DNA of 64,000 nucleotides from Betaproteobacteria bacterium RIFCSPLOWO2_02_FULL_67_26 (GTDB lineage Bacteria > Pseudomonadota > Gammaproteobacteria > Burkholderiales > SG8-41). A program made the position numbers and the translations under genes. Numbering within the stretch: the first letter of the stretch is position 1; every line of letters starts with the position of its first letter. This document shows, piece by piece, positions 7,121 to 51,166 of this stretch. The notes below the pieces were generated by a model. The model was not told where the DNA came from. It saw nothing but the letters and a program-made list of their open reading frames with translations, and searched no databases. The stretch covers positions 1-64,000 of the forward strand of contig MERD01000094.1 of assembly GCA_001771935.1 (NCBI GenBank). The letters run 5' to 3'.

Positions 7121-8398
7121 ATGGCCGAACGCCTGCCCGAGCCCGTGCTGCCGCAAGTCATATCGGTCGCGGAGTTGAACCGCATCGCGCGCGACCTGCT
7201 CGAGCGCAGCCTGCCGCTCATGTGGGTGGCCGGCGAGATCTCCAACTTCAAGCGCTACGAATCCGGGCACTGCTACTTCACGCTGAAGGACGGCGCGGCC
7301 CAGGTGGATTGCGTGATGTTCCGGCACCGCGCGCAGCTCGCCGGCTGGCTGCCGCAGGACGGGATGCGGGTGGAGGTGCGGGCGCTGGCGACGCTCTACG
7401 AGGCGCGCGGCAGGTTCCAGCTGAACGTCGAGGCGATGCGCCGCGCGGGGCTCGGCGCGCTCTACGAGGCGTTCGAGCGGCTGAAGGCGAAGCTCGAGAA
7501 GGACGGCCTGTTCGATCCGGCGCGCAAGCGGCCGCTGCCGCGCTTCCCGCGGGCGGTCGGCGTGGTGACCTCGCCGCAGGCGGCCGCGCTGCGCGACGTG
7601 CTGGCCACGCTCGCGAAGCGCATGGCGCGGCTGCCGGTCATCCTCTACCCCACGCCGGTGCAGGGCGAGGGCGCGGGCGGGCGCATCGCGGCGGCGATTG
7701 CCCTGGCCGGCGCGCGCCGGGACTGCGACGTGCTGATCCTGTGCCGGGGCGGCGGCAGCATCGAGGACTTGTGGGCGTTCAACGAGGAGGCCGTGGCGCG
7801 CGCCATTCGCGATTGCGCGGTGCCGGTCGTGACCGGCATCGGCCACGAGACCGATTTCACCATCGCCGATTTCGCCGCCGACGCGCGGGCGCCGACGCCG
7901 ACCGCCGCCGCCGCGCTGGCGAGCCCGGCGCGGGACGAGCTCGCGAAGCTTCTGGCGCAGGACGCGCACCGGCTGCTGCGCGCCGCGCGCAGGGCGCTGG
8001 AATATCGCATGCAGGGCGTCGATCTCCTGTCGCGCCGGCTGGTCCATCCGGGAGAGCGGATCCGGAACCAGCTCGGCGAGCTGCGGCACCTGGCCACCCG
8101 TCTCGCCGGGGCGTGGGAGCGCGGGCGGGAAGACCTGGGCTGGCAGGCGCGCGAGCTGCGACTGCGGCTGAGGGAAGGGATCCGGCGGCGGCTCGCCGCC
8201 GAAGCCGTGCTGCTGGAGCGCCTGGAGGCGCATCTCAGGCACCTCAACCCGCAGTCGGTGCTGGAGCGCGGCTACAGCATCACCGAATCCGCCGCCGGCG
8301 GCATCGTGCGCGACGCCGCGCGGCTCGCGGTCGGGGAGGACGTTACAATATCCTTTGCCAGGGGGCGGGTCGGCGCGCAGGTGAACCGGAAGGCGTGA
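7121..8398 (+). CDS. xseA: Exodeoxyribonuclease VII large subunit
   Basis: Catalytic subunit of ExoVII, which degrades single-stranded DNA. 425 aa. The N-terminal OB domain (LPLMWVAGEISNFKRYESGHCYFTLKD) is followed by the nuclease domain with RGGGSIEDLWAFNEE and GIGHETDFTIADFAADARAPTPTAAA, all family signatures. The long coiled-coil-rich segment (~270-370) precedes LERGYSIT near the C-terminus. No xseB (small subunit) is in the window. No ribosome site is visible; the start follows a TAGAAT box by five bases. Confidence 0.97.
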   Translation: MAERLPEPVLPQVISVAELNRIARDLLERSLPLMWVAGEISNFKRYESGHCYFTLKDGAAQVDCVMFRHRAQLAGWLPQDGMRVEVRALATLYEARGRFQLNVEAMRRAGLGALYEAFERLKAKLEKDGLFDPARKRPLPRFPRAVGVVTSPQAAALRDVLATLAKRMARLPVILYPTPVQGEGAGGRIAAAIALAGARRDCDVLILCRGGGSIEDLWAFNEEAVARAIRDCAVPVVTGIGHETDFTIADFAADARAPTPTAAAALASPARDELAKLLAQDAHRLLRAARRALEYRMQGVDLLSRRLVHPGERIRNQLGELRHLATRLAGAWERGREDLGWQARELRLRLREGIRRRLAAEAVLLERLEAHLRHLNPQSVLERGYSITESAAGGIVRDAARLAVGEDVTISFARGRVGAQVNRKA

Positions 8399-8429
8399 GG
8401 CGGGGGTGGTCACCCCGCGAGGAGTGGAC

Positions 8430-9305
8430 ATGGAACTGGAAATGGAAAAGGACAAGGGCGACCCGAAGTTCGCCCGGCCGGCGCAGAGCAAGCTCTATCA
8501 GCCGGCGGTCGCCCTGGAGTTTTTCAAGTCGGTCGGCAAGGCCGAGAGCTTCGCGCCGGGCAAGTCCATCTTCGTCGAGGACGAGGGCACCGCCAGCGTG
8601 TTCTCGGAGGGCGCCCGGATGTACCTGCTGGTCGACGGCGAGGTCGCCCTGAGCGTCAAGAAGAAGCAGATCGGCACCGTCGCCAAGGGCGAGGTGTTCG
8701 GCGAGATGGCCTCGATCAGCCAGCTGCCCCGCACCGCCACGGCGGTCGCCAGGACCCCGTGCAGCGTCATCTCCCTCAACGAGAAGCAGTTCCAGGCCGC
8801 GCTCGCGAAATCGCCGGAATTCGCGTTGATGCTGATGAACATCATCATCAGCCGCATCCGCGAGACGCTCTTCAATCTCACCAGCGGCGGCGGGCTGTCG
8901 GAAAAGGACCGCTGGAACAAGGCGGCCGTGTTCGACAAGAAGCTCCTCGCCGACCTGGAGCGCGAGTTCGACGACAAGCCCGCAGCCATGCACCCCCTGA
9001 ACAAGGTCATCATGAAGGAAGGCGACCGGGGGGTATTCATGTACGTGGTGCGGGACGGCGTGGTCGCGATCTCCATCAGTGAAAAGGTCATCGAGAAAGT
9101 CGGGCCCGGCGGCGTTTTCGGCGAGATGGCGCTCGTCGACCAGTCGCCGCGCGCCGCGACCGCCAGCGCGGAGACCGATTGCACGCTGCTCGCGATCAAC
9201 CGCACCGACTTCATCGACCTGGTGAAGACCAGGCCCGCCTTCGCGACGTCCCTGCTGAAGGCGCTCTCGGACCGGTTGCGGTTCATGACGTCGAAGTACA
9301 AGTGA
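8430..9305 (+). CDS. Tandem cyclic-nucleotide-binding-domain protein (first copy)
   Basis: 291 aa; I chose ATG 8430 over the track start because GAGGAG lies six bases before it. Two CNB domains, residues ~28-150 and ~175-290. Each has an intact phosphate-binding cassette including the Arg: FGEMASISQLPRTATA and FGEMALVDQSPRAATA. So both should bind cAMP or cGMP. There is no DNA-binding, kinase, channel or other output domain and no membrane segment. The next gene is a full-length paralogue 47 nt downstream. Function unknown; a cNMP buffer, sensor or partner protein is possible. An in-gene TACAAT at 8344 could be its promoter. Confidence 0.85.
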   Translation: MELEMEKDKGDPKFARPAQSKLYQPAVALEFFKSVGKAESFAPGKSIFVEDEGTASVFSEGARMYLLVDGEVALSVKKKQIGTVAKGEVFGEMASISQLPRTATAVARTPCSVISLNEKQFQAALAKSPEFALMLMNIIISRIRETLFNLTSGGGLSEKDRWNKAAVFDKKLLADLEREFDDKPAAMHPLNKVIMKEGDRGVFMYVVRDGVVAISISEKVIEKVGPGGVFGEMALVDQSPRAATASAETDCTLLAINRTDFIDLVKTRPAFATSLLKALSDRLRFMTSKYK

Positions 9306-9352
9306 GCCGGCGCCGCGCGCCGCGGGCGATCATCATTTTCTGACGGGCAGAC

Positions 9353-10183
9353 ATGGACGAACTGGACTTCACGAGCTCGAACCGGCCCTCGAAGAGCGCG
9401 ATCTACGACCCGGCGGTCGCGCGTGCCTGCTTCCAGTCGGTCGGCAAGGTGGAGGTGATCGCGCAGGGCGGGCAGTTCTTCACCGAGAACCAGAACAGCG
9501 ACCGGATGTACCTGCTGGTCGAAGGCGAAGTGGGCCTGATCCGCGGCAAGAAGGTGCTGGATGTCGTCAAGGCCGGAGAAATATTCGGGGAGATGGCGGC
9601 GATCAGCCAGTTGCCGCGCAGCGCCACGGCCGCGGCCAAGACCGCCTGCCGCGCGCTATCGCTCGACTCGAGGCAGTTCCTGGGCGCGATCCAGAAGGCG
9701 CCGGAATTCGCGCTGATGCTCATGAACATCCTCATCAACCGCCTGCGGCTGACCGCGGCGATCGTGAGCCGGAACGTGGCGGACGATGGGAAAGCGCCGG
9801 AGAGCAGGGTGTTCGACGACAAGCTGCTGGCCGAGCTGGTGGACCGGGTGCCCCACCCCCCGGCGCACAACCCCCTCAACAAGGTCATCATGAAGGAGGG
9901 CGAGGGCGGGGTGTTCATGTACGTGGTGATCGAGGGCCGCGTTGCGATCTCGATCAAGGGCAAGTTGATGGGGCGCATCGGGCCGGGCGGCATCTTCGGC
10001 GAGATGGCCCTCGTCGACCAGTCGCCGCGCGCCGCCACCGCAACGGCGGAAACCGACTGCGACCTGCTGTCGATCAACCGCAACGATTTCCTGAACCTGG
10101 TGAAGACCAACCCCGCTTTCGCCGTGGCGCTGCTGAAGGGGCTGGCGGACCGGCTGCGCTACATGACTTCCCATCACAGGTGA
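9353..10183 (+). CDS. Tandem cyclic-nucleotide-binding-domain protein (second copy)
   Basis: 276 aa, clearly a paralogue of the preceding gene by eye (shared LMLMNI, NPLNKVIMKEG, GVFMYVV and FGEMALVDQSPRAATA). Two CNB domains (~22-140, ~165-275) with intact cassettes FGEMAAISQLPRSATA and FGEMALVDQSPRAATA. No output domain. The most divergent parts are the N-terminus and the linker around residues 140-165. The arrangement implies gene duplication after an internal domain duplication. It converges on miaA with a 17-nt gap and no obvious terminator between. Confidence 0.85.
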   Translation: MDELDFTSSNRPSKSAIYDPAVARACFQSVGKVEVIAQGGQFFTENQNSDRMYLLVEGEVGLIRGKKVLDVVKAGEIFGEMAAISQLPRSATAAAKTACRALSLDSRQFLGAIQKAPEFALMLMNILINRLRLTAAIVSRNVADDGKAPESRVFDDKLLAELVDRVPHPPAHNPLNKVIMKEGEGGVFMYVVIEGRVAISIKGKLMGRIGPGGIFGEMALVDQSPRAATATAETDCDLLSINRNDFLNLVKTNPAFAVALLKGLADRLRYMTSHHR

Positions 10184-10200: not shown

Positions 10201-11250
10201 TCAGGCTTCGCTGATGAGCATGGCCTCGAGTTCGCGGCGCAGGTATTCCAGCACGAGGTCGGCGACGTCCTCCCCGAGGCAGTCGAATTCGGTCACGCCC
10301 TCCATCGAGCGCAGCCAGGTGAGCTGCCGTTTCGCGAACTGGCGGGTCGCGGCGATGCCCTGCTCGAGCAGGGCCGCCTTTCCGATGCGGCCCTCGAGGT
10401 GGTCCCAGGCCTGGCGGTAGCCGACGCAGCGCATCGCGGGCATGCCGGGCTCCAGGGCGTACTCCTCGCGCAGCTTCGCGAGCTCCGCCACCAGTCCCGC
10501 CTCGAGCATGGCCTCGAAGCGCCGCGCGATGCGCAGGTGCAGCACCTCGCGGTCGCTCGGGACCAGCGAGACCCGGATCGGGGTGTAGGGGAAGTAGACG
10601 TATTTCGGCTTCTGCAGCAGCACCGACAGCGGCTTGTTGGTGAGGTAATAGACTTCCATCGCGCGCTGGATGCGCTGCGCGTCGTTGGGCTCGAGCCGCG
10701 CCGCCGTCTCCGGGTCCACCCGCCGCAATTTCGCGTGCACCCCCGGCCAGCCCTCTTCCGCGGCCATGGTATCGATCATGAGCCGGATCATGGGATCGGC
10801 TTCCGGCAGGTCGTTGAGCCCCTCGGTGAGCGCCTTGAAGTAGAGCATGGTGCCGCCCACCAGGAGCGGGATGCGGTCGCGCTCGGTGATCTCGCGCATC
10901 AGCGCCAGCGCGTCGTCGCGGAAGCGCGCCGCGGAGTAGCTCTCGTGCGGCTCGATGATGTCGAGCAGGTGGTGCGGCGCCTGCCGCAGCAGCTCCGCCC
11001 CGGGCTTCGCGGTGCCGACGTCCATGCCCTTGTAGATCTGCGCCGAGTCCACGCTGATGATCTCGCACGGCAGCGCCCGCGCCAGCCGCAGGGCCACCGC
11101 GGTCTTGCCGCTGGCGGTCGGGCCCATAAGCAAAATTGCCGCAGGCAATTTTGCGGAGGGATGAGGGCGGAGGGATGAGGGATGAGGGGCGAGCGGCGCC
11201 GCAAGCTTTTTCCGCGCGGTTTTGGCCTTCGTCTTGCGCTTACTGGTCAC
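10201..11250 (-). CDS. miaA: tRNA dimethylallyltransferase
   Basis: Adds a dimethylallyl group to A37 of tRNAs reading UNN codons. 349 aa from GTG 11250. P-loop LLMGPTASGKTAVAL, then the DSAQIYKGMDVGTAKP and VGGTMLYFKALTEGL motifs are all present. The first ~35 residues (MTSKRKTKAKTARKKLAAPLAPHPSSLRPHPSAK) are not family sequence; they encode a GATGAGGG-type repeat plus a lysine-rich stretch. A TTG at the LPAAILLMG position could be the ancestral start but has no ribosome site. GAGGAG 13 nt before the GTG supports the long form weakly. Start therefore uncertain, identity not. Confidence 0.95.
   Translation of the reverse strand: MTSKRKTKAKTARKKLAAPLAPHPSSLRPHPSAKLPAAILLMGPTASGKTAVALRLARALPCEIISVDSAQIYKGMDVGTAKPGAELLRQAPHHLLDIIEPHESYSAARFRDDALALMREITERDRIPLLVGGTMLYFKALTEGLNDLPEADPMIRLMIDTMAAEEGWPGVHAKLRRVDPETAARLEPNDAQRIQRAMEVYYLTNKPLSVLLQKPKYVYFPYTPIRVSLVPSDREVLHLRIARRFEAMLEAGLVAELAKLREEYALEPGMPAMRCVGYRQAWDHLEGRIGKAALLEQGIAATRQFAKRQLTWLRSMEGVTEFDCLGEDVADLVLEYLRRELEAMLISEA
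11130..11154. repeat. Perfect hairpin inside the miaA 5' region
   Basis: GCAAAATTGCC, loop of three, GGCAATTTTGC: 11-bp arms without mismatch. It sits between the repeat-encoded N-terminal extension of MiaA and the conserved P-loop, and contains TTG codons in frame. It resembles the kdsB start hairpin in size and in its CAAA...TTTG ends. Its sequence codes for KLPAAILL, so part of the stem is constrained by protein; the perfect symmetry is still notable. Confidence 0.6.
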
Positions 11251-23284: not shown

Positions 23285-24577
23285 TCATGAACCGTCGGGC
23301 ACCAGGCGGCGCAGGGCCAGCATCGTGCAATCGTCCGCGAGCACCTGCGAGCCGGTGTGGATGACGAGCCTTTGGTGCAGGGAATCGAGGAGATCGGGCA
23401 GCGGGGATTGCGCGCTGCGGCGCAGCGCCTCGAGACAGCCTTCTTCGGACAACGGGACGCCGGCCCGGCCCTCCGCTTCGGTCACGCCGTCGGTATAGCA
23501 GAAAAGCGTTTCCCCGATCGCGAGGTTGCGCTGCATGCTGGAGTAGCGCCGGCCGCTCGCCGCGCCGACCAGCATGCCCTTCGGCAGCGGCACGACCGCC
23601 GCTTCGCGACCGCTGCAGACGATCGGCGCGCAGTGGCCCCCATTCGAGTAGACGAAGGTGCCGCTCTCCACGTCCAGAAAACCGCAGAACAGGGTCACGA
23701 AGAGGTTCGCGTCGTTGCCGATGCACAGGCGGTCGTTGAGCGTCTGAAGAATCGTCTCCGGCTGCATGGTCTCCATGGCCAGGATCCGAAGCAGTCCGAT
23801 AACCCGGACCATGAACAGGGCGGCGGCGATGCCGTGGCCCGAAACGTCTCCGATGCAGACGAACAGCGTGCGGTTGTCGACGAAGAATGCGTCGAAGAGG
23901 TCCCCCCCGACTTTCGAGGCCGGCTCCATGAAACCGCAGACTTCGATGTCCGAGCGCCCCGGAAACAGCGGCCGCTGCAGCGGCAGCATGCTGGCCTGGA
24001 GCTGGCGCGCGACCTCCAGCTCCTTCCTGAGATGCTTGAGCTCCAGCCGCTCGCGCTGCAAGGCGAGGGCCTTCTCGTTTGCACGGCGCATGCGCTCGGT
24101 CAGGGTGGTCATGAGGTTTTCGGGGACACCGCGCAGGCGCATCAGGCGGTTCCAGAACACCTCGCGGTCGAGCCGGAGAACGCGGGCATCCGAAACCGCG
24201 CTCACCAGTGCCGAAATCGGCTTGCCATCGATCGCCGAGAGCTCGCCAATGCACTCGCCGGGAAGGATGTCGATGTCGATGGCGGTGTCCGCGCCGGGGT
24301 CCGGCCCCAGTTGCGCGACCAGCTTGCCCGACAGGAGGATGAAGACGTTGCGGTTGGCCTCGCCAGCGCGCAGCAGCGGCGTGCCCGCAGGCAGCAGCAA
24401 CACCTCGCAGCCGGCGAGCGCTTCGGAAAGGCCGGGCAGGTCTGCGTTCCGGAACAGAGGAATCCAGTGGATTTCTTCCATGCGCCGGTCGCCGCGCCGC
24501 CGTTCCTGTGGGCCCCGAACGTTCGCGACCCTGCGATCAGGTCCACGGCGAAAACGCGCGATCCCCGGGGCTTTCAT
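23285..24577 (-). CDS. CNB-domain fused PP2C (SpoIIE/RsbU-type) phosphatase
   Basis: 430 aa. Residues ~35-160 form a cyclic-nucleotide-binding-like domain whose cassette (IGELSAIDGKPISAL) lacks the Arg that holds the phosphate, so ligand binding is doubtful. A coiled coil (~165-200) leads to a PP2C domain with metal residues in KVGGDLFDAFF, IGDVSGHG, YTDGVTEA and ADDCTMLAL. Expected to dephosphorylate the STAS protein encoded two genes upstream. Start overlaps the HATPase stop by 4 nt (ATGA). Third gene of a partner-switching operon with no sigma factor nearby. Confidence 0.9.
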   Translation of the reverse strand: MKAPGIARFRRGPDRRVANVRGPQERRRGDRRMEEIHWIPLFRNADLPGLSEALAGCEVLLLPAGTPLLRAGEANRNVFILLSGKLVAQLGPDPGADTAIDIDILPGECIGELSAIDGKPISALVSAVSDARVLRLDREVFWNRLMRLRGVPENLMTTLTERMRRANEKALALQRERLELKHLRKELEVARQLQASMLPLQRPLFPGRSDIEVCGFMEPASKVGGDLFDAFFVDNRTLFVCIGDVSGHGIAAALFMVRVIGLLRILAMETMQPETILQTLNDRLCIGNDANLFVTLFCGFLDVESGTFVYSNGGHCAPIVCSGREAAVVPLPKGMLVGAASGRRYSSMQRNLAIGETLFCYTDGVTEAEGRAGVPLSEEGCLEALRRSAQSPLPDLLDSLHQRLVIHTGSQVLADDCTMLALRRLVPDGS

Positions 24578-25062
24578 CGCGGTTTCCAGCAGGCGCCGAA
24601 CGTGAAATGGTTGCGCCCGTCTTGGTGGCGGTAGTCCAGCCAGTCGGCGCAGCGGCGGATCATCACCAGTCCCAGCCCGCCCGGCGAGGCCTCGTCGAGC
24701 GACCTGGGAGGTTCTCTCTGAGGGATGGACAGGGGATTGAACGCCGTGCCGGCATCCGATACCGTCACGCTGGCCTTACCGCAGTCCGGGTCGAGCCGGA
24801 CCTCGAGCAGCAGCCTGATCGGCATAGCAAGCGCCAATCCGCCGCCATGGGTGAAGACGTTCGCCAGTGCTTCGTTCAGGCAAAGCGCAAGCTGCTCCAC
24901 CAGTGCCGGCGGCACGTTGCGCTGCCGGCAAGCCGCTTCGAGCCATTCCGAAGCGCGCCGTACCTCGGCGCCACTGGCGCCAATCGTGAGTTCGTCAAAC
25001 TGCGACAACGCGTTATGTTTGGTGGCCACCTGCCGGTCAGGCGAGTGCTGCCCTTTCGGCAT
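24574..25062 (-). CDS. RsbW-like serine kinase / anti-sigma ATPase
   Basis: 162 aa GHKL ATPase of the HATPase_c_2 type. N box NEALANVFTHG, G1 SDAGTAFNP, G2 SPGGLGLVMIRR. Would phosphorylate the adjacent STAS antagonist and bind an unknown target (sigma factor or enzyme). Overlaps the STAS gene by 26 nt and the phosphatase gene by 4 nt, showing tight co-translation and a fixed stoichiometry. Confidence 0.9.
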   Translation of the reverse strand: MPKGQHSPDRQVATKHNALSQFDELTIGASGAEVRRASEWLEAACRQRNVPPALVEQLALCLNEALANVFTHGGGLALAMPIRLLLEVRLDPDCGKASVTVSDAGTAFNPLSIPQREPPRSLDEASPGGLGLVMIRRCADWLDYRHQDGRNHFTFGACWKPR

Positions 25063-25381
25063 CGGCAGCGTTCCTGAAAACCGGGATCAATTCGTTGACG
25101 CCGGTTGCCTCGAGGCTCATGATGACTGTCGAGCTGTCATCGACAACCAGCACCATCTTGCCCCCGCGCTGCTGGACCACCTTGGCGCCGGCGATCAGCG
25201 CGCGTATGCCGATCGAGGCGAGGAATTTGACGGAAGTCAGGTCAACGACCACGCCCTTTTTCGGAGCGGCAGCCAACTCCACGAGCTTTGAGGCGACCCT
25301 GTCGGTACCCGGTACGTCGAGGCGCCCGGAGATCACGATCCGACGAAGGCTTTCGCCGAAGTCTTCGTGGCTGATGGACAT
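25037..25381 (-). CDS. STAS-domain anti-sigma factor antagonist
   Basis: 114 aa from ATG 25381, chosen over GTG 25411 because GGGGGAA lies at the right distance. One STAS domain: LRRIVISGRLDV, VVVDLTSVKFLASIGIRALI, in which the Ser of FLASIG matches the phosphorylated residue of RsbV/SpoIIAA. First gene of the three-gene partner switch. Confidence 0.9.
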   Translation of the reverse strand: MSISHEDFGESLRRIVISGRLDVPGTDRVASKLVELAAAPKKGVVVDLTSVKFLASIGIRALIAGAKVVQQRGGKMVLVVDDSSTVIMSLEATGVNELIPVFRNAADAERAALA

Positions 25382-25538
25382 GAGTACTTCCCCCTTCTTG
25401 TTCGAAGACACCGCGGCGGCAAGTATGACATAGGCGCGTCCACGGTCTCGCGTCTCCCGCTCGTGCCGATGGGCTCACGCGGCGGCGGATCGTTAACTCA
25501 TTGGTATTATTGATGATCTTGGTGGCTAGTTCAGAATC

Positions 25539-50083: not shown

Positions 50084-51166
50084 ATGGTTCTTATTCAGGG
50101 AGGCGGGGTGGGCGAGATCGCGGAGAAGCTGGTCGGCGGAATCCCGCTGTTCGCCGGCATCGAGCATGCCGAGCTCGCGGGTTTCCTGCGCATCTTCCAG
50201 CCCGTCGCCTTCGCCGCCGGCGCGCACCTGGTGCGGCAGGGGCAACCGGCCGACAGCGCATTCATCATCGAGTCCGGATCGGCCGAAGCGGTGACCGCCC
50301 TCCCTGGCGGCGGCGAGTTGACGCTGGCGACGCTGGGCTCGGGCAGCATGCTGGGCGAGATGGCGCTGCTCGATACCGCGGTGCGCGCGGCGACCGTCGT
50401 CTCCCGCACGCCGGTGTCGGCGTTCCTGATCGAGCGCGACGGTTTCCGCATGCTGCTCGCGCAGCGCGACCGCGCCGCGTTCACGGTCCAGAATCGCGTG
50501 ACGCGGTCGCTGTGCCAGAGATTGCGGGAGCTGAATGCCAGAATCGTCGCCGCGGATGCGCCTGAAAGCGCGGCGCCGCCGCTATCCGGCGAGTCCGCCG
50601 ATCCAGCGGGCATGCGCCGCGGCACGTGCTCGTTCGATTACCGGGCGTTCCTGCCCATCCTGCCGCTGTTCAGGCGCTTCAACGCCGGCGAGCTGGAGGA
50701 TTTCGTCAGGCGGACCGGGGTGATTGAGCTCGACCGCGGCCAGGTGCTGTTCCGGCAAGGGGACCCGGGACAGTCGGCGTTCGTGATCGTGCGCGGCGCC
50801 CTCGAGATCCAGCATGCCGAGAACGGCCGACGCCACCGCATCGGGATCCTGGGACCGGGCCGGCTGTGCGGGGTGCTCGCGCTGATCGAGGGCCAGGTCC
50901 ACAGCATGAGCGCCACGGCCCGGGAGGCAACGGTGCTCCTCGAGATCGCCAAGCCGGCCTTCGACGGGCTGTTCAACGGGCACGACCCGGTGGCCGCGAA
51001 GTTCCAGGACGCGATCAACCGCGAGCTTCTCCAGTCGCTCGCGCGCACCACCATTCATCTCACGCGCCTCATCAGCCAGGCGCGCATCCGCGGCGGGCGG
51101 CAGGAGCAGAAAAAGGCGGAAGCGCTGCAGCGGGCGCTGGGGACGACCGAGTGTCGTGCCGCCTGA
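50084..51166 (+). CDS. Double cyclic-nucleotide-binding-domain protein (third in window)
   Basis: 360 aa. CNB1 ~18-140 has an intact cassette GEMALLDTAVRAATVV with the Arg. CNB2 ~190-315 (GVLALIEGQVHSMSATA) has lost the Arg, so only the first half should bind cNMP. Separated by a Pro/Ser/Ala linker. C-terminal amphipathic helix (~320-350). No DNA-binding or enzyme domain. Not a close copy of the pair at 8430/9353. ATG 50084; GTG 50108 is an alternative start. Confidence 0.83.
   Translation: MVLIQGGGVGEIAEKLVGGIPLFAGIEHAELAGFLRIFQPVAFAAGAHLVRQGQPADSAFIIESGSAEAVTALPGGGELTLATLGSGSMLGEMALLDTAVRAATVVSRTPVSAFLIERDGFRMLLAQRDRAAFTVQNRVTRSLCQRLRELNARIVAADAPESAAPPLSGESADPAGMRRGTCSFDYRAFLPILPLFRRFNAGELEDFVRRTGVIELDRGQVLFRQGDPGQSAFVIVRGALEIQHAENGRRHRIGILGPGRLCGVLALIEGQVHSMSATAREATVLLEIAKPAFDGLFNGHDPVAAKFQDAINRELLQSLARTTIHLTRLISQARIRGGRQEQKKAEALQRALGTTECRAA

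Follow-up and report, generated by a model that had tools for sequence, protein, structure and literature searches.

Two adjacent double-CNB genes

The window, the whole 64,000-nucleotide stretch of DNA that was analysed, carries two adjacent genes, here called A and B, each encoding a protein with two cyclic-nucleotide-binding (CNB) domains. The genes, their neighbours and the phosphate-binding cassettes of the four domains are listed below.

7121 to 8398, forward strand: xseA, exonuclease VII large subunit (by sequence), the immediate upstream neighbour, outside the proposed mechanism
8430 to 9305, forward strand: gene A, double-CNB protein of 291 aa with two PF00027 domains and orthologues in genomes G009, G008 and G002
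8694 to 8750, forward strand: phosphate-binding cassette of CNB1 in A, VFGEMASISQLPRTATAVA, canonical, Glu and Arg invariant in the family
9114 to 9170, forward strand: phosphate-binding cassette of CNB2 in A, VFGEMALVDQSPRAATASA, canonical, Glu and Arg invariant in the family
9353 to 10183, forward strand: gene B, double-CNB protein of 276 aa with two PF00027 domains and an AlphaFold2 model
9581 to 9637, forward strand: phosphate-binding cassette of CNB1 in B, IFGEMAAISQLPRSATAAA, canonical, Glu and Arg invariant in the family
9992 to 10048, forward strand: phosphate-binding cassette of CNB2 in B, IFGEMALVDQSPRAATATA, canonical, Glu and Arg invariant in the family
10201 to 11250, reverse strand: miaA, convergent downstream neighbour, in a conserved synteny block with mutL

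The start of gene A is placed at the ATG at 8430, which has GAGGAG upstream, with an alternative GTG possible at 8406. The original prediction of adjacent paralogues consisting of two CNB domains and nothing else is borne out by the Pfam search, which finds two PF00027 stretches in each protein (E-values of 5e-35 for A and 8e-38 for B; 119.8 and 128.8 bits, with the cut-off at 27.5) and no further domain that passes its threshold. A six-frame search locates the four CNB domains at 8598-8810, 9000-9230, 9464-9697 and 9878-10111, and the two proteins are paralogues with an identity of about 56 to 60%. Neither protein is named by any NCBIfam model; the closest models, being CRP, TIGR03896 and others, all score far below their cut-offs, with the CRP equivalog model reaching 58 to 66 bits against 266. 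The alignment to the NCBIfam model PRK11753 (CRP) spans profile positions 29 to 133 of 214, including the start of helix C. The helix-turn-helix (HTH) DNA-binding domain of the CRP/FNR regulators is found in neither protein by Pfam or NCBIfam, and Pfam finds no TIR domain.

All four phosphate-binding cassettes are canonical by sequence, confirming that they are intact. The prediction of eight or more ligand sites for the gene pair goes too far, as one A and one B carry four between them and eight would require homodimers of both.

Distribution of the double-CNB family

Orthologues at 36 to 79% identity are present in many genomes, so the arrangement seen in A and B is not a chance observation. 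Of 74 genomes from the window's GTDB family, 47 have a match to the family profile at an E-value of 1e-30 or below, a few of them through single-domain proteins only, and 27 have none at this threshold. Across the order, 35 of the 349 sampled genomes match at an E-value of 1e-45 or below and are spread over nine families. A class sample of 274 genomes, with the best eight candidates per genome scored, contains no full-length member besides that of the window's own genome, the matches otherwise being single domains or loose double-CNB proteins. The 72,556 plasmids searched yield no full-length match, which led us to reject a spread by plasmids, and the viral contigs encode no relative. Given the lack of full-length relatives on plasmids, on viral contigs and in the class sample, the family is chromosomal and, within the genomes sampled, confined to Burkholderiales, in which it is conserved but uncharacterised. 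We also rejected a role in phage biology or defence, as there is no PHROG match and no viral relative, and the PADLOC matches of A and B to Pycsar effectors cover the CNB part only.

Asymmetry of the two CNB domains

Throughout an alignment of 48 relatives, one of which (L104) is truncated before the CNB1 loop, both domains keep the cassette Glu and Arg. This invariance argues that ligand binding is under selection. Conservation extends to helix positions outside the cassette, where R132, R267, P117 and F119 are invariant, and the helices PEFALMLMNILINRLR and PAFAVALLKGLADRLR are hydrophobic and conserved.

CNB1 and CNB2 are consistently different and not interchangeable. In 48 of 48 relatives, the beta2-beta3 segment of CNB2 has exactly 12 residues and contains an invariant Gly, whereas that of CNB1 has 11, 17, 18, 22 or 31 residues and no fixed Gly, with 18 residues in A versus 11 in B. 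The residue following the cassette Arg is a Ser or Thr in 43 of 48 CNB1 domains and most often an Ala in CNB2 (21 of 48). The beta2-beta3 Gly was described to co-evolve with the cassette Arg and to couple binding to distal sites (Kannan et al. 2007, PMC2246266); read together with the alignment, this means that CNB1 retains the Arg without the fixed Gly.

Predicted structure

The AlphaFold2 model of B, built from 36 sequences (pLDDT 90.0, pTM 0.85), shows both CNB domains in full; their C-terminal helices are short (residues 117-138 and 254-273), and the first 15 residues of the model are disordered (pLDDT below 50). The top Foldseek matches are the regulatory subunit of protein kinase A (PKA-R) and PKG, which are the top PDB matches by sequence as well as by fold. 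Superposing the whole chain of this one predicted model on PKA-R and PKG structures gives TM scores of 0.29 to 0.40 with an rmsd above 11 A. In the model, the single domains thus match PKA-R and PKG, and the relative placement of the two does not. The poor superposition suggests that the placement of the CNB domains differs from that in PKA-R, and no mechanism can be transferred.

Ligand and cyclases

Searches of the window's own genome for cyclases give nine matches to class III and none to class I. Adenylyl cyclases carry Lys and either Asp or Thr at two specificity positions, and six of the class III cyclases, read in detail by their motifs, have Lys and Asp/Thr at these positions, so they look like adenylyl cyclases. 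The canonical, conserved cassettes and these adenylyl-type cyclases make cAMP the likeliest predicted ligand of A and B, and there is no need for the earlier suggestion that the proteins recognise a different nucleotide signal. The possibility of cGMP or another nucleotide would be strongest for CNB1.

Gene neighbourhood

Gene A starts 31 bases after the stop codon of xseA at 8398 and on the same strand. The order xseA-CNB-miaA is found in all nine gene-carrying genomes of the window's genus, with an extra gene between the double-CNB gene and miaA in G002. It recurs in a single genome from a second genus (G011) and in all four genomes inspected from a third (G014, G020, G025 and G031). At other loci, in the same and in other families, the neighbours are nifS, LRR genes, an amino-acid ABC transporter, transaldolase and others. 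The xseA-miaA-mutL block also exists without the double-CNB gene in six genomes (G010, G013, G016, G023, G040 and G057), four of which (G010, G013, G040 and G057) have the gene elsewhere. The position beside xseA that was pointed out in the original prediction is real, and its conservation is limited to three genera; because the gene lies elsewhere at other loci and the block occurs without it, the adjacency is no evidence of a role in DNA repair. We reject a functional link to xseA and regard the adjacency as inherited synteny.

Reading about 45 loci did not reveal a conserved partner gene, suggesting that any partner probably acts in trans. The candidates for a conserved operon partner, among them nifS, LRR proteins and a glutamate-type ABC transporter, each recur in close relatives only and were rejected. 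The neighbours of A and B in the window include no cyclase gene, and a neighbouring cyclase was rejected as a rule, being found among the double-CNB loci just in L183 (about 3 kb away) and L012 (about 7 kb away). In one subclade, LRR genes lie directly downstream of the double-CNB gene (L013 5565-6428 and L016 4193-5095) and are possible local partner candidates.

Duplication and origin

Tandem pairs are present in four of the nine gene-carrying genomes of the window's genus (G000, which is the window's own, G007, G008 and G009). In the tree, A groups with its G008 and G009 counterparts and the sole G002 copy (support 99/95), and the rest of the group beyond this A-type clade is poorly resolved. 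The tandem duplication noticed in the DNA is genuine for A and B, being an event at the level of the genus and not a defining feature of the family. The gene was also multiplied independently in other lineages, with three copies in a row in L016 and two each in G484, G529 and G559.

The repeated unit is closely similar to single-CNB proteins of about 120 aa, which reach about 47% identity to CNB2. An example is the Methylovulum miyakonense protein L030 7992-8354, which shares the unit GEIFGEMALID...P-x-FAL-x-VMR-x-x-A-x-RLR. These proteins differ from the double-CNB family in having one domain and a wider spread (Methylococcales, Chloroflexi, Acidobacteria and others). The resemblance to such widespread single-domain proteins makes it plausible that a single-CNB protein of this size gave rise to the family through duplication and fusion. 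In Methylovulum L025 (6013-8363), a single-CNB gene follows a small membrane protein and a Pycsar-like class III cyclase with AGS_C; this pairing is taken as chance, because the close relative L024 keeps the CNB gene without the cyclase.

Comparison with known systems

The closest described protein, compared here by its description only, is the cell-pole cAMP-binding protein CbpA of Pseudomonas aeruginosa (PA4704), which has two CNB domains without an output. One of the CNB domains of CbpA is degenerate, whereas both cassettes are intact in every member of the double-CNB family. CbpA is a P. aeruginosa cAMP receptor other than the CRP homologue Vfr (PMC7247823, PMC11139211). The family resembles PKA regulatory subunits, such as yeast Bcy1 (3of1), in its tandem CNB domains with canonical cassettes. 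It differs in the domain arrangement, which does not superpose (best TM 0.40), and no kinase partner is known; neither a dimerisation/docking domain nor an inhibitor sequence is recognised in A or B by Pfam, and the N-terminus of the B model is short and mostly disordered. With the CRP sensor core, A and B share the CRP-type CNB domain and the start of helix C, but they have neither the long dimerisation helix nor the HTH. In contrast to the Pycsar effectors PycTIR and PycTM, they have no TIR fusion and no neighbouring cyclase gene. By analogy, A and B probably work by partner contact, in the manner of PKA-R or CbpA, which are receptors known from other organisms.

Proposed function

We consider it reasonably probable that A and B are stand-alone, two-site cAMP receptors or adaptors, working through contact with a partner in trans. 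A sensor acting through protein contact was one of three ideas in the original prediction and is the best supported, because the proteins have no output domain and no conserved neighbour, and both sites and the helices following them are strictly conserved. Each protein would be a soluble 3',5'-cyclic nucleotide receptor, most likely for cAMP, whose chain offers two putative sites but neither an enzymatic nor a DNA-binding output. Ligand binding in both CRP-type beta-barrels would move the short C-terminal helices, and this movement would uncover or mask the docking face of a partner encoded elsewhere in the genome, making the protein a trans-acting adaptor or inhibitor like the PKA regulatory subunit and perhaps CbpA. 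The canonical site with allosteric coupling would be CNB2. CNB1 keeps its cassette intact but misses the fixed coupling Gly, and its beta2-beta3 loop varies in length; it may therefore bind ligand without being coupled in the usual way, or employ this loop in selecting the partner. A and B, differing in this CNB1 segment (18 versus 11 residues), may have split their partners. We give less credence to a more specific version, doubtful but conceivable, of an undescribed bacterial PKA-R analogue in which a coupled CNB2 and an uncoupled, loop-diversified CNB1 would jointly read cAMP and switch a trans partner, with A and B as duplicates whose differing partners are set by the CNB1 loop.

The proteins could instead be a cAMP buffer or sink, holding cyclic nucleotide and damping its swings without any partner, as had also been proposed. 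The missing output domain and conserved operon partner, the four putative sites per pair and the multiplied gene copies in L016, G484, G529 and G559 fit this idea, but a pure buffer needs neither the family-wide asymmetry of CNB1 and CNB2 nor the conserved helix positions outside the cassette (R132, R267, P117 and F119), and the 27 of 74 family genomes without a match at the threshold indicate that buffering is no general need. A sink is thus possible, and we judge it unlikely. About as improbable is an antagonist or hetero-oligomer of CRP/FNR-type regulators, in which the CRP-like core and helix C start would pair with a full-length regulator or compete with it for ligand. Several CNB proteins encoded in the genome are of the size of CRP/FNR regulators (about 240-270 aa), the closest curated functional model is CRP with its helix C start, though far below cut-off, and the hydrophobic, conserved helices PEFALMLMNILINRLR and PAFAVALLKGLADRLR would suit such contacts; on the other hand, the long CRP dimerisation helix is absent, CNB1 and CNB2 of a single chain could serve as each other's contacts, and a pairing of A or B with CRP is putative.

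We regard it as very unlikely that at least CNB1 binds another ligand, which could be cGMP, cCMP/cUMP as in Pycsar or a nucleoside as in trypanosome PKA-R. The Ser or Thr after the CNB1 cassette Arg corresponds to the PKG consensus cassette (PMC2246266), and the CNB part is like that of the PycTIR effectors. A TIR or membrane effector is absent, however, the cyclases read look adenylyl-type, and the viral contigs, encoding no relative, give no sign of a phage sponge. A Ser or Thr at this position also occurs in cAMP-binding CNB domains such as that of CRP.

Bacterial cAMP research mostly ends at CRP, and a contact-acting receptor family would add a non-transcriptional branch to this signalling. 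The family is notable for covering at least nine Burkholderiales families, for the strict selection on both of its sites and for its lack of a DNA-binding domain.

Other cyclic-nucleotide genes

With 26 PF00027 matches alongside its nine class III cyclase matches, the window's own genome is rich in cyclic-nucleotide signalling for its size of 3.46 Mb. At 50084-51166 (forward strand), the window encodes a second, different double-CNB protein of 360 aa, in which cassette 1 is intact (LGEMALLDTAVRAAT) and cassette 2 is degenerate (CGVLALIEGQVHSMSAT), yet matched by Pfam. The region at 23285-25411 (reverse strand) encodes a CNB domain followed by an apparent PP2C/SpoIIE-type phosphatase (430 aa) and then by two small ORFs resembling an anti-sigma kinase and a STAS antagonist, and is probably a partner-switching module with a cyclic-nucleotide input, as judged from its sequence.

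Six deltaproteobacterial proteins of about 740-890 aa (L028, L036, L039, L043, L044 and L063) end in two CNB domains, and their long N-terminal part is like a TIM-barrel sugar isomerase. This fusion could hint at effectors.
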